IMG/VR virus record: IMGVR_UViG_3300021963_000408
Coordinates: 1-33,111 of that record
Direction: 5' to 3' (one strand)
Origin: a virus
DNA length: 33,111 nt
A model generated the notes under the pieces. That model did not search any database and had not been told where the DNA came from. It worked only from the letters and a program-made list of their open reading frames with translations. This document shows, piece after piece, positions 3,802 to 27,080 of the stretch (position 1 is the first letter of the stretch; every line of letters starts with the position of its first letter). The position numbers and the translations under genes are program-made.

Positions 3802-5910
3802 TTAAAAACCCTGACCAACTACTTCAGAGAATTCTACACCGGATCGCACTGCAACAAAGTTCAATTGAATATAATTAATTGCACGAGCAGGTTTAACGTA
3901 GATGTCACCTACAAACTCATTTCTATCAATGACTCCTTGGGTATTATTTGTGCTATCACACACTACCTTGAAGTCATAGATGCCGCGTCTTCCTTTGACG
4001 TCTCTGAGGAAAGGTTCAACGATATTCTTGAACTGAGCCCGTGTAAATTCATCATTGAATTCAAAGAGTAAACCCTCAGCAGCACGTGCAATAGTCTTCT
4101 CGAGAACAATGAATAGCCGACGAACGTTGATTCGATCAAAAGCACTTGGAGCACCGATTAGAGTCTTATCGCCGTAAAGAACTGTTCCTTGACCTGGAAA
4201 AGTAACTACTGGGTTTACGTCGTTCTTATAAAGAAGATCGCGATCAGCTTTGCCTGGATTAAAGGCAAGTTTAATCACATTCTTAATTTGACCACGATTG
4301 AAACCAGCAGGCGAAAACCAAGGATCTCTTACGCTATCAGTACGAACAGCCAAACCAGCTATATCACCATTAAGTGGGATATAACGATAAACATCATTGT
4401 ACTTATCGTACTGATACTTGTATCCAGAATCTAATACTGCATATGAAGTAGAAGTAAGTGCATTACGGAAATCAACAATATCTTGTGCTTCATCTTTACC
4501 TGAATTCTGAACAACGTCAGCACGATCAGGAGAAATAAAGGCTACACAGTCTTTACGAACAGAAGCAATATTATCAATTAGATAATTTGCAAGCTGTGAA
4601 TTGTGAGTAGATCCTCTTGCTTTACCCTGTAGTAGTAAAGAAACATCAACATCATCTGGTGACTTAAACTTATCATATGCTAAAGCAAGTGCTGCATTAG
4701 TAACAGTGCTTTCATCAGCCCCATCAGAACCATTGATAAATGAAAAATTTGATGGCTTTGAATTTGTTGAAGAAGTAATGTTTACTGCTGTATTAGATAC
4801 TGCGCCTGACCTATCAGTTGCCCACCAAATGTAATTGGAGTTATCATTTAGAACAGTCTTGTAATAATTAATGGCACCATCATTGGTCTTTGCATCAGTT
4901 GCTCTTGATAGACCTTTATAGACTTCTAGAATTGTTCCAGGAACTCCTGTAATCCTGCCATCTTCATCGGCAACAACAACATGAAGTTCATCATTTGCTG
5001 CGGTGTTACCAAAGTTTGCCACAAATTCAGATTGACCAGGAGCAGAATCTACAGAATTAAAATATTCCCAATCTCTAACAATTGTGTTTGAACTATAATT
5101 AGAAGATAGAGTATATTTGGAAACAAGATTTAATGTAATCGTAGCAGCACCGGTGTTTGTACCGGCAGAGTTATTTACAAGAATGCTTACATTAGAAATT
5201 TTAAGATATTGTTTGCCAATTGAACTATTTCCTACTTCTAAGATATCACCAATTGAGAATAGGTTTGCAACTGTATTTGCATAGGGTACAGGAGTACTAC
5301 CCGTCAAAACAGCAGTATTTACCAAAGAAATAGTGGCAGTATTGGAACCAACAGTAAAATCAATCTTTGTAGCAGTTGCATTACCGAATGATGTATTGGC
5401 AGTGCCAACAGTATTGCCAGAAAGAAAATCGATGGTTTGTGTGTATTGATTAGCAGCACTGCAAACAGAAACTTTAAGTGAATTTCCTAGTTCACCAGGA
5501 TACTTGGCAATGAACTGAACGCCAGCTTCAAAATTTGCAACTTTCGTATCATAATCATCAGCATTAAGAACTAGATGAACTAAGTTGCTGGTAATTGTGG
5601 TGCTATTTGCCATAGCAGAAAGAACACCAGTTGCACCAGTTGCATCAGCCGTATTTGCTGCACGGCTTACGTACAACTGATTTCCATACGCTAAAAAGTT
5701 TGCAGCTGTAAAGAATGTTTCTGGATTGTGATTAGTTGGTTTTCCAAACCGAGCAACTAAATTTTCTTCTGAGTCTACAAGGACTAGTTTGTCGATTGGA
5801 CCCCAACGAAATACACCAGCAAAAGCACCTTCTGTAGTTGCTGCGCCAGGCACAATTGTGGTTAAATCAATTTCGGATACATTAACTCCGGGACTTACTT
5901 GAAATGCCAT
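3802..5910 (-). CDS. 18: tail sheath protein gp18
   Basis: Contractile tail sheath protein, which polymerises around the tube and contracts to drive it through the envelope. The 702 aa compare with 659 in T4. The N-terminus (FQVSPGVNVSEIDLTTIVP, then EGAFAGVFRWGPID and LVARFGKP) and the C-terminal core (RRLFIVLEKTIARAAEGLLF, then FNDEFTRAQFKNIVEPFL and VKPARAINYIQLNF) are diagnostic. Residues ~90-400, rich in Ser, Thr, Asn and Ala, form the variable outer domains. The ATG at 5910 follows GGGAG nine bases upstream. An exact late promoter stands in the 62-base gap before it, so the sheath begins a strong late transcript that ends at the terminator after the tube gene. Confidence 0.97.
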   Translation of the reverse strand: MAFQVSPGVNVSEIDLTTIVPGAATTEGAFAGVFRWGPIDKLVLVDSEENLVARFGKPTNHNPETFFTAANFLAYGNQLYVSRAANTADATGATGVLSAMANSTTITSNLVHLVLNADDYDTKVANFEAGVQFIAKYPGELGNSLKVSVCSAANQYTQTIDFLSGNTVGTANTSFGNATATKIDFTVGSNTATISLVNTAVLTGSTPVPYANTVANLFSIGDILEVGNSSIGKQYLKISNVSILVNNSAGTNTGAATITLNLVSKYTLSSNYSSNTIVRDWEYFNSVDSAPGQSEFVANFGNTAANDELHVVVADEDGRITGVPGTILEVYKGLSRATDAKTNDGAINYYKTVLNDNSNYIWWATDRSGAVSNTAVNITSSTNSKPSNFSFINGSDGADESTVTNAALALAYDKFKSPDDVDVSLLLQGKARGSTHNSQLANYLIDNIASVRKDCVAFISPDRADVVQNSGKDEAQDIVDFRNALTSTSYAVLDSGYKYQYDKYNDVYRYIPLNGDIAGLAVRTDSVRDPWFSPAGFNRGQIKNVIKLAFNPGKADRDLLYKNDVNPVVTFPGQGTVLYGDKTLIGAPSAFDRINVRRLFIVLEKTIARAAEGLLFEFNDEFTRAQFKNIVEPFLRDVKGRRGIYDFKVVCDSTNNTQGVIDRNEFVGDIYVKPARAINYIQLNFVAVRSGVEFSEVVGQGF

Positions 5911-20132: not shown

Positions 20133-20147
20133 TATTTATTATTTATT
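20133..20147 (-). promoter_or_regulatory. possible weak late promoter pair
   Basis: The minus strand carries two AATAAATA boxes, 7 bases apart (20140-20147 and 20133-20140), each one base from TATAAATA, in front of the 108-aa gene. The start from either would leave a leader of roughly 20 bases. The surrounding sequence is very AT-rich, so a chance match is a real alternative. If active it would separate fibre expression from the enzyme island upstream. Confidence 0.3.
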
Positions 20148-21021
20148 TAAAATTAAAAATGATTCTATGAAGCAATCTATCCATATTTGTGTATGCATCT
20201 CTTGAGTGTTGAGTGCATATTGAATCAAAAAACACTAAGTCTCCATCATTCCAATTATGCTTATAAACATTTTCTTCTTTAAATAATAAAGACTTTAACC
20301 ATTTAGTTATCTCAAGACTTTCTTTGAATGTCTTGCCTTTAAACATCACAGCCATATTGTAGTCGTATCCAAATCCTACAAGACCAGTTAATGAGGTTCT
20401 TATTAGCGATCTTTCTAAAACTTCACTTGAATAGTTGTCGATATAGTTTAGTAGAATTTCTTTATGAAGAAGACTAGGATATGATGGTGTATTCTTTTTA
20501 TTCAATACCCTCTCAATACCTTGCATTAATATGTCAGATCGATATTCATATATCAAAGAATTTACAAAATCCTTATCACTTAATGATAATTTGTAATATT
20601 CAGAAATAGTTTCTAAAAAAGAAGTACTTGTATTAACAGTATTTTTGCCGTGTAAACAAATAGCGTTGTATACTTTTCTATATGCAGGACCATCTCTATG
20701 CCAATTTAAGTATTCATTAGTAGGAACAATTCCTTCCGAAACACCTTTTTCATTCTTTTTGGATTGAACTTTTAATACACCCGGATATTCTGGATATGTC
20801 GCAGACTTAAAGAATTCAATATACTCTTTCTTTCCTTGTTGCCCATAATAGAACTCGATAATTGGGTATTTGGGTTCGCCATAATATGCTAAGTCAAGAT
20901 CTTTAAAGAAATACCAAATATCAGAAAGCACTAGATATTTCTTTTTTATAAAAACAATCAAGTTATTTTTAAATGCATCTCTAACTTCTTCAAGAGATTT
21001 CACTTCTTTTACAAATTCCAT
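20143..21021 (-). CDS. TauD/TfdA-like Fe(II)/2-oxoglutarate oxygenase
   Basis: A 292-aa soluble protein with the TauD/TfdA signature. The metal triad is His108 and Asp110 in LNWHRDGPAY, and His272 in TQHSRDAY. Arg282 in NMDRLLHRIIFNF is the likely 2-oxoglutarate carboxylate binder, with a second Arg at 286. NWNDGDLVFFDSICTQHSR is the usual strand before the distal His. TSFLETI (~133) matches the T-x-F region after the HxD motif. Enzymes of this family hydroxylate small molecules such as taurine, fatty-acid derivatives or amino acids; the substrate cannot be read here. It ends just before the 108-aa structural gene and starts only 7 bases after the desaturase stop, so the two probably share a transcript. 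All catalytic residues look intact. Confidence 0.85.
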   Translation of the reverse strand: MEFVKEVKSLEEVRDAFKNNLIVFIKKKYLVLSDIWYFFKDLDLAYYGEPKYPIIEFYYGQQGKKEYIEFFKSATYPEYPGVLKVQSKKNEKGVSEGIVPTNEYLNWHRDGPAYRKVYNAICLHGKNTVNTSTSFLETISEYYKLSLSDKDFVNSLIYEYRSDILMQGIERVLNKKNTPSYPSLLHKEILLNYIDNYSSEVLERSLIRTSLTGLVGFGYDYNMAVMFKGKTFKESLEITKWLKSLLFKEENVYKHNWNDGDLVFFDSICTQHSRDAYTNMDRLLHRIIFNFK

Positions 21022-21028
21022 AATACTC

Positions 21029-21796
21029 TCAATTGAATAATTTTTTACTCACTATACCCAATATATCTATTTCATACCATTTCTTACTATGAACTGCATC
21101 ACCGGGAAATTGATGATGGTTATTCTGATAACCTTCTCCAAATACTAAAAGCCCAATCAAAGTATTGTTTCTGCTTAAGTCTTTTGTATCATATGATATA
21201 TAACCATATAAATGCCCCAGTATACCAATACCCAGACTCGTTGCAATCCAAGACCAAACAGCAGGAGCAACATAACCATATACAAAATACTGAGGACCAA
21301 GCATTAAAAGAGCAATAGAATATACTGCAATGATATGCCAATAATACTTATGGAATTCTAAAGCAAGATGATCTTTGAGTAATCTACCACCGTAATGAAC
21401 GCTGATATTGGTTTCATATTTTAAAGCAGTCCAATATAGTTTAAACGGATTACAGAAATGTGGACTGTGAGGATCTTCTTCCGTATCACTTTTTTTATGG
21501 TGTTTTCGATGTTTCATTACCCATTCTATAATAGTACCCTGAGAAGCTAATGTGCCGAATGTTAATCCAATGCATTTCATCCATTCAGGAAAATACCTAT
21601 AAGATAGGTGTGAGTAATACCGGTGAAAGGTTACTGAGATGCCTATGCCTCCGAATAAGACATAAAACAATAATCCCCAAAGATTATATTCGATAGGATA
21701 TATGAAAAAAGAAGCAAAGAAGATTAGATGCAGAATTACCTGATATGATAACTTTGCATATGGTTTGGCTTTATTTAAAAACGGCGAGAAGAACAT
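21029..21796 (-). CDS. membrane fatty acid desaturase, delta-9 type
   Basis: A 255-aa integral membrane di-iron desaturase of the acyl-CoA/acyl-lipid delta-9 family, which puts a cis double bond into saturated acyl chains. The histidine boxes are HRYYSH (58-63), HRKHH (96-100) followed by the hallmark DTEEDPHSPH, and NNHH (225-228) in GEGYQNNHHQFP. The usual first His of box three is Gln224, a substitution I recall in other bacterial members. His195 in GHLYGY may be an additional iron ligand. Hydrophobic segments lie near 18-35, 40-57, 75-90 and 155-195. I chose ATG at 21796, not a TTG six bases earlier, because AGAAGG lies eight bases before the ATG. The 5' end overlaps the 200-aa gene by 26 bases. 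It lacks a fused cytochrome b5, so needs external electrons, probably from host ferredoxin or a similar donor. Confidence 0.92.
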   Translation of the reverse strand: MFFSPFLNKAKPYAKLSYQVILHLIFFASFFIYPIEYNLWGLLFYVLFGGIGISVTFHRYYSHLSYRYFPEWMKCIGLTFGTLASQGTIIEWVMKHRKHHKKSDTEEDPHSPHFCNPFKLYWTALKYETNISVHYGGRLLKDHLALEFHKYYWHIIAVYSIALLMLGPQYFVYGYVAPAVWSWIATSLGIGILGHLYGYISYDTKDLSRNNTLIGLLVFGEGYQNNHHQFPGDAVHSKKWYEIDILGIVSKKLFN

Positions 21797-22373
21797 TATC
21801 AATACCTTCTATGTGTAAATCCTTAGCTATAGTAACATATGTTACTTGTTTATGAAGGCGTCTATGACCATTAATAACAATTTCACCCTCTAATGGAATT
21901 AGATAAGATTCATCTTCAATAAATTTATACAAATCTTCGCCAGCATTTACCACAATAACATCATTTAAAGTCATAACTTTATCTTCTGTTATTTTCCCAT
22001 CTTGATTTATACAAATAATAGAAGAGTCATTCTCTAACGGATATGCATGCCTAGGAATATTATCATCAATAATTGTTTCTCTTACAGTTTGATTATCAGA
22101 ACATGAGATTATATGAGTTCTGTTTGGAGAATATGCGTTATTGTGAGTAGTAAAATCACCGCGATAATATGTCGGATCAACAGATAATATTGTATCTTTG
22201 TCTGGATGATTGTCTATATCATAAAATCCATATTTCCAAGAACCACTTGATACTATTTGCCCAATTGTAAATTTAGCAATACGTGCAAAATCTTTTGGAA
22301 CTTTAATTGGTTTAGAATTAAATTCTGTAAGATTATGTATCGTTTGTTTTACAAAAAATGGCGTTTGTTTCAT
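21771..22373 (-). CDS. hypothetical protein, 200 aa, possible cupin-like fold
   Basis: A 200-aa soluble protein that I do not recognise. Its start MKQTPFFVKQTIHNLTEFNS is followed by KFTIGQIVSSGSWKYGFYDI, a His-rich central part (THNNAYSPNRTHIISC, then NIPRHAYPL), and a C-terminal beta section DVIVVNAGEDLYKF, YLIPLEGEIVINGHRR. The last section has the feel of a cupin barrel (strand, Gly turn, strand), but the usual His-x-His metal motif is not clear. The stop overlaps the desaturase start by 26 bases, which suggests coupled translation. It lies one base past the preceding 159-aa gene. It may assist or use the desaturase, or be unrelated. Confidence 0.7.
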   Translation of the reverse strand: MKQTPFFVKQTIHNLTEFNSKPIKVPKDFARIAKFTIGQIVSSGSWKYGFYDIDNHPDKDTILSVDPTYYRGDFTTHNNAYSPNRTHIISCSDNQTVRETIIDDNIPRHAYPLENDSSIICINQDGKITEDKVMTLNDVIVVNAGEDLYKFIEDESYLIPLEGEIVINGHRRLHKQVTYVTIAKDLHIEGIDNVLLAVFK

Positions 22374-22858: not shown

Positions 22859-23938
22859 TTATCCCGCAGTAGGACCAGTAACTGTGCCGGCTACTGGAAA
22901 TGTTATTAATGAATATCCTTGAATAGCAACCCCAGTAGCACCACCAGTTCCAGCATTAGTTGAAGACGATTCAACATTGGCGGTTGCAGATGGCGTAGTT
23001 GAACCAGAACCAGCGCCACCTGCAGAACCAGCTGCGCCTCTTGCACCGCCAGCACCCCCGGTGCCACCAATAGCAACAAATGTAGCAGGTATAGCCGGAG
23101 CTAGTTTAGGTAATGTTACTGCTGCTGTTGTTGCGCCTCCAGAAGTAGAACCAGATGTTCCTACAGTTCCATTAGCTCTTGCATAGTTTGCTGGAAATCC
23201 TGGAGAAGGAACAGTTGTAGGCACGGTTCCTGCTGGTCCACCGACAGCGACGCTTTGTGAAGATCCTCCACCTCCACTTCCTCCACTTCCTCCTACAACA
23301 GCACCATACCATCCAACTGGATTTGTTGTAGCATATGATTTGCCTCCTCCGCCTCCTCCGCCTCCAGCAGCAATAACTCCTCCGCTATTATTAATAGTTA
23401 TAGGAGAAGCTATTGTCATTCCTCTTCCACCTGCAGAACCAGCAGCACCATTCACGAATGTAACAGGATATGTATTTATATTCTTAGGTGGACCCGAAGG
23501 TGTAGCAGCATTCAAGGTAGCATCGCCACCGCTGCCTCCTGCGCCTCCTTTACCAACAATCGTACCAGCATTTGTTAAAGTAACAGTTGATAGCGCAGGT
23601 AATGCAGGACTTAATGTAAACGCTGCAGTAGGTGTTGCAGTTGAATATACAACAACAGCAGGATTTATTGTAATGCTTGCATTTACATCATCAGTACCAT
23701 TCCAACCAGCAGAAGTTAATTGTGTTCTTAGATTATAATTTGCTGTAGAAACAGATATAGTTTCTGTATAAGTAAACACACCAATAAAAACTTGACGCCA
23801 GGCCACACCATCATTAACATATGTTGATTTTACGTTTCGCCAAGCAGTGCCATCATTAATGTATATAGTTTTTACTCGTTTCCAATCAGTAGCAGGAGTT
23901 GCTGTTTCTGTAACTTTTATGTATGTATTTGCTGCCAT
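22859..23938 (-). CDS. glycine-rich adhesin-like tail protein
   Basis: A 359-aa protein with two parts. Residues 1-50 carry a twofold motif, WKRVKTIYINDGTAWRNVKS and TYVNDGVAWRQVFIGV, typical of phage tail proteins that I recall with such W-x-x-V-x-x-x-Y-V-N-D-G repeats. Residues ~130-345 are full of glycine: GKGGAGGSGGD, AAGGGGGGGGKSY, GGSGGSGGGGSS, GGTGGAGGARGAAGSAGGAG, spaced by small residues. This resembles the poly-Gly helix arrays of the gp38-type receptor-binding adhesin of T4-like Salmonella phage S16. It may thus form the receptor-contacting tip. The C-terminal ~20 residues end FPVAGTVTGPTAG. The next gene upstream is the double 2OG oxygenase, only 5 bases away. Receptor binding is inferred from composition and place, not from a diagnostic motif. 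Confidence 0.75.
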   Translation of the reverse strand: MAANTYIKVTETATPATDWKRVKTIYINDGTAWRNVKSTYVNDGVAWRQVFIGVFTYTETISVSTANYNLRTQLTSAGWNGTDDVNASITINPAVVVYSTATPTAAFTLSPALPALSTVTLTNAGTIVGKGGAGGSGGDATLNAATPSGPPKNINTYPVTFVNGAAGSAGGRGMTIASPITINNSGGVIAAGGGGGGGGKSYATTNPVGWYGAVVGGSGGSGGGGSSQSVAVGGPAGTVPTTVPSPGFPANYARANGTVGTSGSTSGGATTAAVTLPKLAPAIPATFVAIGGTGGAGGARGAAGSAGGAGSGSTTPSATANVESSSTNAGTGGATGVAIQGYSLITFPVAGTVTGPTAG

Positions 23939-23943
23939 GCGTT

Positions 23944-25089
23944 TTACCTAAAATATGGACCAATCATCCAACATACTGTTGCATGTCGAGTACCTGATAT
24001 TACATCTTCTACGCCATGTAGTAAAAATGATGGAAACACTATAACCGTTCCTTTAGTTTGTAATGGATAAAGCTTTTCATCTGATACTTGTAGAAAAAAT
24101 TTACCACCTTCAAAATCATCATTAAGAAATGCAAGAGCTGTAAGCTTTCTACATTCTTTTGTTGGTGTTGTTATAAACGTATCCAAATGAGATTTATATC
24201 TACCTGTTTCATTATATTTTAAATATTCTATTTGTTGGCAATGTGTTAAATCAAATTTCCATGCTTGTTGATTTGCAACAAACGCGTTTGAAATTAATTG
24301 AGTTCCTATCCCTTCATGAATAGGAAGAAGCATTTTCTTAACATTTCTTATTTGCTTATTTATAACTCCATTTGTATGCGAACCAATTTCAGCATCTTCT
24401 AATTCAGAAGAACCATATTTTAAAATAATTGAATCGCAATATTCTTCCGAAATAACATTTGGAAATTGCCAAAAATAAATTACAGAATCTTCTTGTTTCA
24501 CATGAACAACTCTTTGTGTTTCACTAGAAACATTTAAACTTGATCTACCATCATATTTTTGATTTGCGCATGGGCCATTTGCATCAACATAATGAAAGAA
24601 CACTTGGCACTGCCATTCACCCTCAAAAGAATTTCTCCAATGATATATTTCTGTGCCTTTATATAGAGCAACATCACCTGGTTCAAGAATAACAGCATTT
24701 CCATTTTCAGTTGAATTTTCTTTATTAAAAGAAATAGGCCATTCTTTTCCACTAAGACCAAGCGTAACAGTTGCACTTATTTCGCATGCAAGTCTATCTT
24801 TATGAATAGTTAAAATTTCACCAGGTCTATAAACTCTAGCATAACTATATGTAGGAATAAGTTGACGACCAGATATTTCAGAAAAAGTTTCTGTAAGATC
24901 ATTTAAAAGCTGATCAAAATATGGATCGCAATAGACCGCATCTGACGATGGACACTGATCATCATTTACAGTTTGTTTTTTTGAAACTAAATCAAACAGA
25001 CGCATCACAGACGCATCACATGTCTTTTTATCAATTAAATTTTTTAAAACAACATAATACCTATCATTAAAATCATCAACAATATTCAT
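23944..25089 (-). CDS. double-domain 2OG-Fe(II) oxygenase
   Basis: A 381-aa protein with two oxygenase domains in one chain. Domain one (~1-175) has HKD (His96, Asp98) in GEILTIHKDRLACEISATVT and a distal His150 in YHWRNSFEGEW. It resembles the 2OG-Fe(II) oxygenases common in T4-like cyanophages, which have the same PTYSYARVYRPGE lead-in. Domain two (~200-381) resembles prolyl 4-hydroxylase-like enzymes, with HLD (His301, Asp303) in RYKSHLDTFI, distal His358 in LLHGVED and Arg368 in GTRHATVCW. Both metal triads are complete; the 2OG-binding base of domain one is less clear. I chose ATG at 25089 with TGAGG five bases upstream, not the TTG start 24 bases further up. It lies 5 bases before the glycine-rich adhesin gene and 20 bases after the 656-aa fibre. 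Substrate unknown; protein hydroxylation is one option. Confidence 0.85.
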   Translation of the reverse strand: MNIVDDFNDRYYVVLKNLIDKKTCDASVMRLFDLVSKKQTVNDDQCPSSDAVYCDPYFDQLLNDLTETFSEISGRQLIPTYSYARVYRPGEILTIHKDRLACEISATVTLGLSGKEWPISFNKENSTENGNAVILEPGDVALYKGTEIYHWRNSFEGEWQCQVFFHYVDANGPCANQKYDGRSSLNVSSETQRVVHVKQEDSVIYFWQFPNVISEEYCDSIILKYGSSELEDAEIGSHTNGVINKQIRNVKKMLLPIHEGIGTQLISNAFVANQQAWKFDLTHCQQIEYLKYNETGRYKSHLDTFITTPTKECRKLTALAFLNDDFEGGKFFLQVSDEKLYPLQTKGTVIVFPSFLLHGVEDVISGTRHATVCWMIGPYFR

Positions 25090-25109: not shown

Positions 25110-27080
25110 TCAATAATAATAGTATATATCACCAACGGCGCCGCCAGTAGGTGGAATATTGGTAGCATTAGCTGATAATATCGATCTATTTCCTTTTGCA
25201 TTACTATTGGCAGTGATAACAACGTTACTAGTTGAATTACCAACATATAATGCTGAACTATTCACAGTTGCATTAGCAGTTGAATTGCCAATAAACAGTT
25301 GTGAAGTTGTTAACTGTACATTAGCGCCTACGTTAGCACTTGTAGAAAAAGTAACTACGCCAGTAACACCTAGAGTACCACCGACTCCAAGGTTACTGGC
25401 AACACCCAATACACCACCAACGTTAGCATTACCTTGAATGTTAGCTGTACTACTAATATCAACTGCACCAGTAACTCTTAGAGCGACACCGGGAGCAGTA
25501 TTATTGATACCTACACGAGCATTAACAGTATCAACAAATAAGTCACCATCACCAATATTAGTATTAGGAGCTACAGTAAGTGCTGTGGTATTAATCGTTA
25601 ATGCTGTACCAACGTTAGCACTTGTTGTTACAAAAAGCGTTGCTGTGTTTGTTTGACCTGTCACGTTAGCATAACCAGCAGACACATTAGCAAATACTAA
25701 AGGAGCAACTAAGTTAGCTGAAGCGTTAACATATCCAGTAATATTAACGTTTCCAGAAGTAATTGTTCCATCGGAAACCGTTAAAGTATTAGTAGTAACA
25801 CTATTAGCCAACACTACCCAAAGACCAGTTGAGTTTCCTAATGCTATAGCATTCGTTGTTGGAAAGAATCCAGTTGTATTAGATACAGTCGTAGTAGTAG
25901 TATGCGATGCAGCATTAACTACACCACTATGATATATGCCAGATGCATTTGAAATTAGACCCCAACTTGATCCAATAGAAGTTACATTAACTGTAGTGTT
26001 ACCAGTACTGTTTGCTAGGTTAATTGAAGGTGCGCCAGTAATTGTACTATTACCAACAGTCAAAGCTGAACCAGTCAATGACATAGTTGGCGCAGTAGTA
26101 GTATTACCAGTAATACCATATTGTGATACTGTAATTTGAACGTTACCACCAACGTTAGCGCTTGTGGCAGCATAGAACGTTGCAGTATTGACTTGACCAG
26201 TGATATTAGCATATGTACCAGTAACATTGGCAAATACTAAAGGAGCATTAACATTCGCACTAGCATTTACAACAGTAGCTGATACGTTGCCGGTATGAAT
26301 ACCAGACGTGTTTGCATTCACAGTAGTGGCATTCACTGTTGTTATAGTTAACACAGTTGAGTTAATTATAGCGCTACCTATCTTAAGATCAACAGGAGAA
26401 AGATTAGCAGTGCTTGTAGCATTAGAAGCCTGTAATAAATTATAGGCATGTGTTGCATTGGCTGTTGAGTTACCAACAATGATTGCTGTGTTTTGAATAT
26501 TCACACCATTGGTTGTTCCAAAAGCGCCAATGTTAAGATTAGCACTTACATTGACTTGAGCTGGTAAGCGTGCAGTGTTTAAAGTACCAGATGAGATATT
26601 CGTTGCGTTTGATGCATATGTAGTTGCGTTACTATATGCAGTTGATCCTTGTGATATTGCAGTATCATATGCTGCTTTTACTGAGTTAGCTGAAGCTGCA
26701 ACAGTTATGCTAGTACTTACAAGACTATCGAGAATATCACTGTTTGCTAAGAGTTTATAATAAACACTTAATCCGGCATTGGATTGTTCCCATGAGTCAG
26801 TTGTTTCATTCCAACGCAATTGAACGTTTGCTGAACTGCCACGATTGACTTCTAATCCTGCATTTTCAGTAGGACCTGTTGCGCCAGATACGTCAGCGTT
26901 TAGTGTAACAATATTATCTGCAATGTTTAACGTTGCAGTATTAACGTACGTAGTTGTTCCAGAAACAGTTAAGTTACCAGAAATAGTTACATCGTTTGAA
27001 AATGTAGCAGTAGAGTTGACTTGCAAACTAGAACCGACCTGTAAGCCGTTCTTAACAATGAAATCTTTAGAAATTGCCAT
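25110..27080 (-). CDS. tail fibre-like protein, 656 aa
   Basis: The N-terminus is MAISKDFIVKNGLQVGSSLQ, then a domain widely found in T4-like phage fibres: GNLTVSGTTTYVNTATLNIA, DNIVTLNADVSG, ENAGLEVNRGSSANVQLRWN and TTDSWEQ (~33-103). Next is a helical spacer with SNATTYASNATNISSGTLNT. Residues ~175-600 are repeat modules (VNTATFYAATSANVGGNVQI, VSQYGITGNTTTAPTMSLTG, LTVGNSTITGAPSINLANST) shared with the 714-aa fibre. The end is PPTGGAVGDIYYYY. Trimeric fibre or fibre shaft is likely. Start is ATG at 27080, 22 bases after the 302-aa fibre, with GAGAGGG upstream. Confidence 0.85.
   Translation of the reverse strand: MAISKDFIVKNGLQVGSSLQVNSTATFSNDVTISGNLTVSGTTTYVNTATLNIADNIVTLNADVSGATGPTENAGLEVNRGSSANVQLRWNETTDSWEQSNAGLSVYYKLLANSDILDSLVSTSITVAASANSVKAAYDTAISQGSTAYSNATTYASNATNISSGTLNTARLPAQVNVSANLNIGAFGTTNGVNIQNTAIIVGNSTANATHAYNLLQASNATSTANLSPVDLKIGSAIINSTVLTITTVNATTVNANTSGIHTGNVSATVVNASANVNAPLVFANVTGTYANITGQVNTATFYAATSANVGGNVQITVSQYGITGNTTTAPTMSLTGSALTVGNSTITGAPSINLANSTGNTTVNVTSIGSSWGLISNASGIYHSGVVNAASHTTTTTVSNTTGFFPTTNAIALGNSTGLWVVLANSVTTNTLTVSDGTITSGNVNITGYVNASANLVAPLVFANVSAGYANVTGQTNTATLFVTTSANVGTALTINTTALTVAPNTNIGDGDLFVDTVNARVGINNTAPGVALRVTGAVDISSTANIQGNANVGGVLGVASNLGVGGTLGVTGVVTFSTSANVGANVQLTTSQLFIGNSTANATVNSSALYVGNSTSNVVITANSNAKGNRSILSANATNIPPTGGAVGDIYYYY

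Follow-up and report, generated by a model that had tools for sequence, protein, structure and literature searches.

The gene at 23944..25089 of the window, i.e., the whole stretch of 33,111 nucleotides of viral DNA analysed here (IMG/VR record IMGVR_UViG_3300021963_000408), encodes two different oxygenases on one chain, the first of which belongs to a phage family (PHROG 2954/3531, T4-GC 615) that is apparently misnamed ferrochelatase. This N half is almost certainly an Fe(II) oxygenase of the DSBH fold and not a ferrochelatase. As the best way of reconciling fold and active site with the linkage data and the cellular setting, we prefer the reading in which two linked Fe(II)-dependent oxygenases, both using 2-oxoglutarate (2OG), act on amino-acid side chains of the same polypeptide, most likely tail fibres, and we regard this reading as likely. 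The two-oxygenase architecture is not unique; what is new is the reassignment of the “ferrochelatase” family. The gene is laid out as follows:

23944..25089, minus strand: two-domain oxygenase gene, 381 aa, matched by PHROG 3531 over its length
24526..25089, minus strand: N domain, residues 1–188, DSBH oxygenase fold, PHROG 2954 “ferrochelatase” family
24487..24525, minus strand: interdomain linker, residues 189–201, pLDDT under 50
23947..24486, minus strand: C domain, residues 202–381, prolyl-hydroxylase-like 2OG-FeII_Oxy_3, PHROG 61

Matches to portal, terminase and sheath mark the window as part of a T4-like phage genome. Translation of 23944-25089 on the minus strand yields an uninterrupted ORF of 381 residues with an ATG start, and relatives of its product are encoded on 13 viral contigs (best-segment identity 46–89%), so this is no chance frame; M1 is nearly invariant among these relatives in an 11-sequence alignment. 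A sequence-only reading of this DNA had proposed two metal triads, H96/D98/H150 and H301/D303/H358, together with a 2OG-binding R368 in the second half, and all of these residues do lie where it put them, in invariant columns of an 11-sequence alignment. Compared with the contig L002, the gene contains a mosaic boundary (24820-25089), DNA identity being about 62% over codons 1–60 and about 97% from around codon 90 onwards, a jump that is a sign of recombination inside the N domain.

When the 381-aa protein is searched against Pfam, only the C half is recognised (2OG-FeII_Oxy_3: 48 bits vs. a cut-off of 27), while the N half is left without a match. The C half also matches PHROG 61, “2OG-Fe(II) oxygenase” (8.8e-28), as well as PHROG 2297, which is named DNA endonuclease. 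Its active-site residues are the following, with counts taken from alignment A5 (the window plus 52 of the 61 C representatives, nine partial or divergent ones, including L026 and L032, being omitted):

24181..24189, minus strand: H301-x-D303 of the C-domain triad, H in 53/53, D in 52/53 and E once
24016..24018, minus strand: H358, third C-domain ligand, 53/53
23986..23988, minus strand: R368, canonical 2OG-binding arginine of the C domain, R in 52/53 and K once

The C domain thus combines what characterises the Fe(II)/2OG superfamily: a jelly roll, an HxD...H motif and a basic residue after the distal His (R or K in 53/53). By sequence, it matches the prolyl 4-hydroxylases 3itq/5hv0 (E 2e-4), and it shares its fold, triad and arginine with these enzymes, with 4j25 of Pseudomonas putida and with the viral vCPH (5c5t); unlike them, it is fused to a second, different oxygenase. 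Other phage genes named “DNA endonuclease” or “DNA endonuclease V” (PHROG 2297, 274) look like 2OG oxygenases too (L018:8909-9424, L104:3288-3806 and 4411-4995, L016:4250-4813, L058:2411-2989); against 2OG-FeII_Oxy_3, one of these “endonuclease” genes scores above the cut-off and three below, and PHROG 274 and 61 match the same protein.

The N half is a member of PHROG 2954, “ferrochelatase” (9.8e-46; 1.7e-46 in the family-wide search), and the whole protein matches PHROG 3531, “ferrochelatase” (9.4e-33). To characterise the family, N domains were gathered from viral contigs (the best 80 of at least 599 confirmed ones), and the window was aligned with 68 of 70 N representatives (alignment A3, 69 rows, L084 and L052 omitted); the PHROG 2954 profile matches all 69 domains. 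Their sub-threshold Pfam matches are mostly to 2OG families (PhyH in nine members, 2OG-FeII_Oxy_2 in seven, HalD in three), the remainder being assorted families with one or two members each. The best of these weak matches are to PF13532 (1.7e-4) and to the AlkB model TIGR00568 (9.1e-5), AlkB models being matched by two members, and a sequence search of the PDB with the N profile gave weak matches, the best to Tet-like dioxygenases (E 0.2). The fold is predicted far more clearly: the AlphaFold2 model computed from A3 has a pLDDT of 96.4 and a pTM of 0.92, and Foldseek counted 811 PDB matches to it at E <= 0.001, of which the best 50 are all of Fe(II)/2OG type, some according to their titles and others being proteins that we take to be such enzymes. 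These best 50 of 811 include prolyl hydroxylases, AlkB, SnoN, PHD2 and HalD, the top match being the prolyl-4-hydroxylase 4j25 (E 3.6e-9, TM 0.71), while the VIA-align scores are Z 18.0 for SnoN (rmsd 3.1 over 183) and Z 17.5 for PHD2 (rmsd 2.9 over 174). Moreover, a search of a viral structure library matched E3SI68, the UniProt “Ferrochelatase” of phage S-SM1, which has the same predicted fold as the N domain (rmsd 1.8 over 141 columns). A jelly-roll oxygenase is therefore the confident prediction for either half, the N half modelled alone as well as both domains of the full-length model, in line with the two different fused oxygenases of the sequence-only reading; a half lacking the jelly roll, which would have overturned that reading, did not turn up.

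At face value, the family name would instead make the N domain a ferrochelatase supplying haem iron chemistry, and the gene a ferrochelatase-oxygenase fusion. The name is indeed that of PHROG 2954/3531 and of most of the phage records listed, and passages of PMC9599517 and PMC11561400 treat the product as that enzyme. Nevertheless, PF00762 (ferrochelatase, HemH) was found at E <= 0.1 in none of the 69 N-domain members, and in none of 14 records (the window plus 13 phage records selected because they have an N-family gene), whereas 8 of 14 control genomes gave a match; conversely, PHROG 2954 is present in 14/14 of these records and in 0/14 of the controls. Combined with the oxygenases that make up the best 50 of the 811 fold matches, this led us to reject a ferrochelatase identity, and it leaves the haem-iron reading next to no probability.

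The history of the name also speaks against it. The N domain was matched at E <= 1e-4 in 156 of 50,697 phage records; among 60 of these, listed evenly down the ranking of the 156, 48 are named ferrochelatase or ferrochetalase and 12 otherwise, one of the latter being S-SCSM2R, where the gene is annotated as a 2OG-Fe(II) oxygenase. The name goes back to a table row of Sullivan et al. 2010 (PMC3037559), in which T4-GC 615 is given as “Hyp. with ferrochetalase domain”; the sizes in that row (732, 591 and 573) match S-SM2_036 (732 nt), P-RSM4_049 (591) and P-SSM7_163 (573), which are tagged T4-GC 615 and “ferrochelatase” in their records. The misspelling “ferrochetalase” persists in the records of S-P4 and S-E7. 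By sequence, our N domain is a member of this family of cyanophages and pelagiphages (PHROG 2954/3531, T4-GC 615), of which PHROG 3531 spans the fused layout, and differs from it in name only, the evidence pointing to an Fe(II) oxygenase fold.

Like the C domain, the N domain has a jelly roll and an HxD...H motif, the triad being invariant (69/69). Its metal ligands and the two arginines that are candidates for binding 2OG map as follows:

24796..24804, minus strand: H96-x-D98 of the N-domain metal triad, invariant in 69/69
24640..24642, minus strand: H150, third N-domain ligand, invariant in 69/69
24835..24837, minus strand: R85, candidate 2OG-binding residue, 69/69 phage-contig rows and 71/71 cellular ones
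24634..24636, minus strand: R152 (distal His + 2), candidate 2OG-binding residue, 69/69, cellular 70/71 with one gap

The residues invariant in the 69 N domains are Y81, R85, Y87, H96, D98, C102, S105, G138, Y143, G145, H150, R152, Q162, H166 and D180. In the cellular N domains (n = 71), R85 is found in all, and both H150 and R152 in 70, with one gap each; the HxDRxxCExS columns of this set are biased, since the motif itself was used in the scan that collected it, while R85, H150 and R152 lie outside that motif. The canonical Arg or Lys about 10 residues past the distal His is absent from all 69 N domains, as the sequence-only reading had noticed for this protein: the position corresponding to R368 of the C domain (around Q160) is occupied by Q in 32 rows, C in 31, H in three, Y in two and N in one. 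Because of this absence, we put forward the use of 2OG by the N domain on grounds of likeness to the superfamily, other branches of which bind 2OG at different places; that the domain is 2OG-dependent we consider likely. From conservation, we infer that R152 and/or R85 may bind 2OG. Lying two residues past the distal His, R152 would be on the same face of the strand, and R85 presumably sits where AlkB has an asparagine ahead of its tyrosine (N-x-Y motif); a position of both arginines in the pocket can thus be argued from strand alternation and from the AlkB likeness.

The sequence-only reading had also considered the halves too dissimilar for a simple duplication. A blastp search of one half against the other gave E 0.08, and the profile comparison aligns them over the metal-site region (probability 63.5%, E 6.8e-5); with such a remote likeness, a recent tandem duplication is ruled out, and the two halves are, as judged from these comparisons, distant cousins. 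A full-length model was built from alignment A4 (the window plus 27 of 28 fused representatives). It comprises two confident domains with a pTM of 0.52; the linker, residues 189–201, is probably disordered and the predicted arrangement of the domains is uncertain. Its best fold matches are Tpa1 (3mgu) and OGFOD1 (4nhy), which are tandem jelly-roll hydroxylases, with bicupin vicilins ranking high too. Given the vicilins, a two-domain match shows shared architecture only, and, for that reason and because of the pTM, the full-length model was set aside as a guide to function.

The match to Tpa1 and OGFOD1 nonetheless bears on another possibility, namely that the N-terminal jelly roll has lost its catalytic activity, or plays a regulatory part, and aids substrate binding by the C enzyme. 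In yeast Tpa1 and human OGFOD1, one domain is said to be a non-catalytic helper, and it is the lack of a metal triad in one domain that marks proteins of this type. The phage protein is likewise predicted to carry two jelly rolls per chain, and its N domain is missing the canonical 2OG residue. In contrast to Tpa1 and OGFOD1, the metal triad is complete in either domain of the phage protein, and the sequence link to these proteins amounts to one weak PF10637 match among the 69 N domains. The triad is conserved without exception in the 69 N domains, as are many residues that probably line the pocket, and the cellular relatives come close to this; furthermore, some N genes have no adjacent C gene or have other partners, unlike a dedicated subunit. 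A dead N domain is accordingly quite improbable.

Single-domain relatives, which the sequence-only reading had suggested looking for as neighbouring genes in other phages, are indeed common. Our linkage sample comprised 91 contigs (93 loci less the repeats L003 and L005, the sole dereplication applied), and an oxygenase of whatever kind counted as a partner if it matched the C profile at 1e-6. The N domain is fused in 37 contigs, accompanied by a separate gene on the same strand in 48 and without a visible partner in six, five of which end within 540 nt upstream, i.e., on the usual side of the partner (L053 being the exception). The fusion is hence neither rare nor unique to this phage. In the separate pairs, the C-type gene is located upstream in 46/48 (within 100 nt in 16, at 100–1000 nt in 23, beyond in seven) and downstream in 2/48. 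The prevalent split order being the reverse of the fused order, read-through of it was rejected as the origin of the fusion, which more likely arose from the rarer N-then-C order. The latter is found only in L045 and L046, and in L045 the two genes overlap by one base (TAATG), a ready-made precursor of a fusion. One contig with an intervening gene, L093, was examined: the gene separating the pair codes for yet another oxygenase (PHROG 81), whose single-linkage cluster extends over 39 loci.

On the N tree (80 rows; L094, L052, L053 and L084 omitted), the fused rows fall in two places, one being the window's group and the other a group with S-T4, S-SCSM1, S-SCSM2R and ACG-2014f. A single clade for the fused layout was rejected by the AU test (p-AU 0.0046, quick tree without the long-branch rows Syn9, L064 and L047). 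This would fit two separate fusions as well as a single ancient one that was later split in some lineages. The second group contains a protein that had been described as two oxygenase domains in one chain (pfam13640 and pfam05721), ORF248 of Synechococcus phage S-SCSM1 (PMC9602691), which by gene order we take to be gp124 (453 aa, N and C domains) and which lies far from the window's group; the ferrochelatase name does not occur in the text consulted of PMC9602691, and no link to it is drawn there.

The neighbours of the gene suggest what the two enzymes might act upon:

25110..27080, minus strand: upstream neighbour, repetitive 656-aa protein by its own sequence, putatively fibre-like and a possible substrate
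22859..23938, minus strand: downstream neighbour, Gly-rich protein and possible substrate, PHROG 2056 “tail fiber protein; host specificity” (6.1e-8)

A tail-fibre/Gly-rich family (PHROG 863, PF21722) occurs near fused genes at 29 loci, 28 of its 37 copies being at fused genes. These neighbours, here and in other fused loci, make tail fibres the likeliest phage substrate, even if the chance that they are specifically the substrate is somewhat below even. A conserved ORF of at most 159 aa (L025:1553-2032 and its cluster) usually precedes the fused gene immediately; it was seen at 23 loci, all fused, and had no family match. Neither a partner nor a fibre setting is obligatory, since the N gene of P-SSM7 sits in the replication region, with no oxygenase next to it, and that of S-PM2 likewise lacks an adjacent one. 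Further downstream in the window, a fatty-acid desaturase gene (21029-21802; PF00487, 51.9 bits) adjoins that of a TauD-family dioxygenase (20143-21021; PF02668, 56.4 bits).

In the mechanism that we propose, each domain would bind Fe(II) and 2-oxoglutarate and split O2, yielding succinate, CO2 and a ferryl-oxo species, with which it would hydroxylate or otherwise oxidise an amino-acid side chain. The C domain would be an ordinary prolyl-hydroxylase-like enzyme in which R368 holds 2OG, while in the N domain R152 and/or R85 would replace the missing arginine. Fusion or neighbourhood would keep the two activities together because both act on the same polypeptide.

Clues to the substrate also come from cellular relatives, of which a scan of species genomes recovered 68 loci. 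Lasso-peptide hallmarks were detected by similarity in six of them (L122, L125, L162, L163, L169, L170), the lasso B2 model being above cut-off in L122 and L162, and the cyclase and PqqD models being the best-named yet below cut-off. NRPS proteins flank the N relative in L132; proteins similar to that NRPS do so in L130 and L131, two genomes belonging to a single genus, and L146 has one weaker match to it. A CmlA-type hydroxylase is encoded in L134. In about 58 of the 68 loci, many of them short, an evident peptide cluster is absent from the stretch covered, and several loci look like phage contigs in genome bins. The lasso-peptide and NRPS settings of some relatives suggest peptide substrates, and a peptide or protein substrate is in our view fairly likely. 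The lasso-peptide aspartyl beta-hydroxylase CanE, an Fe/2OG enzyme acting on the lasso precursor peptide (PMC9266682), is the known precedent for tailoring of a ribosomal peptide by such an enzyme; it resembles our family in that some cellular N relatives are in lasso-type clusters, as judged from the published description of CanE.

Other arrangements were observed in these bacteria. Two N-type genes lie side by side in L112, L116 and L117, so the N family can also pair with itself; in Verrucomicrobia, it is fused to a DUF6065 protein (L141) or adjoins one (L157, L165), and in an acidobacterial contig it is fused to a methyltransferase domain (L133:1621-2940). Near the N gene and lasso-peptide genes of L122, one protein (L122:6177-8537) combines a C-type oxygenase with TPR repeats and a glycosyltransferase of family GT41, which hints at hydroxylation followed by glycosylation.

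Two further substrate classes have to be weighed against polypeptides. One is small molecules or the 2OG pool, which would take in free amino acids, metabolites and nitrogen signalling. Many members of the superfamily use small substrates, and where NRPS or CmlA-type genes are nearby, the substrate could be an amino acid that is either free or bound to a carrier. Modulation of 2OG and NtcA signalling by the 2OG oxygenases of phages has been proposed by Sullivan et al. 2010 (PMC3037559). The fibre genes nearby in the window and in fused loci, and the lasso-peptide contexts, which imply ribosomal peptides, argue against such substrates, which we deem unlikely. Action on nucleic acid, whether AlkB-like repair or DNA hypermodification, would agree with the weak AlkB-family matches, with the AlkB chains among the best 50 of 811 fold matches and with the dam methyltransferase gene that the N gene adjoins in P-SSM7; as the lasso and NRPS contexts do not fit it and the C partner is prolyl-hydroxylase-like, it is very unlikely. 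The preferred reading remains that of two linked oxygenases of amino-acid side chains.

Taken further, that reading would make the “ferrochelatase” family a hitherto unrecognised branch of Fe(II) oxygenases in which the arginine that binds the cofactor has moved (to R152, next to the distal His, together with R85). The branch would be common to marine phages and bacterial peptide natural-product clusters; in phages, it would work in relay with a prolyl-hydroxylase-like partner, to which it would have become joined on more than one occasion, and would oxidise residues of receptor-binding tail fibres, i.e., serve as a post-translational modification system for phage adhesins. As a whole, we advance this generalisation as a speculative and rather doubtful one. 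The invariance of R85 and R152 makes the unusual cofactor-binding arrangement directly testable, and the fusion offers a single purifiable protein for testing both activities.

The consequences reach beyond this phage. Pelagiphage ferrochelatases have been described as partners of 2OG oxygenases, an oxygenase being adjacent whenever one is encoded (PMC9599517); PHROG 2954 and PHROG 61 are enriched in seasonal viruses, where the abstract names ferrochelatases and the figure PHROG 2954 (PMC11561400); and a marine virome table includes 21 “ferrochelatase” sequences (PMC3620275). In the relevant passages, PMC9599517, PMC3620275 and PMC11561400 count these genes as haem-pathway auxiliary genes, and a literature search covering titles and abstract openings, mostly outside subscription journals, found no correction of the name. 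Since the family bears no likeness to ferrochelatase, the “ferrochelatase + 2OG oxygenase” pair of marine phages looks like a pair of oxygenases. If the family is indeed one of oxygenases, inferences on virus-driven haem or iron-porphyrin metabolism would lose their basis, and what was seen would be a two-oxygenase system common in ocean phages.
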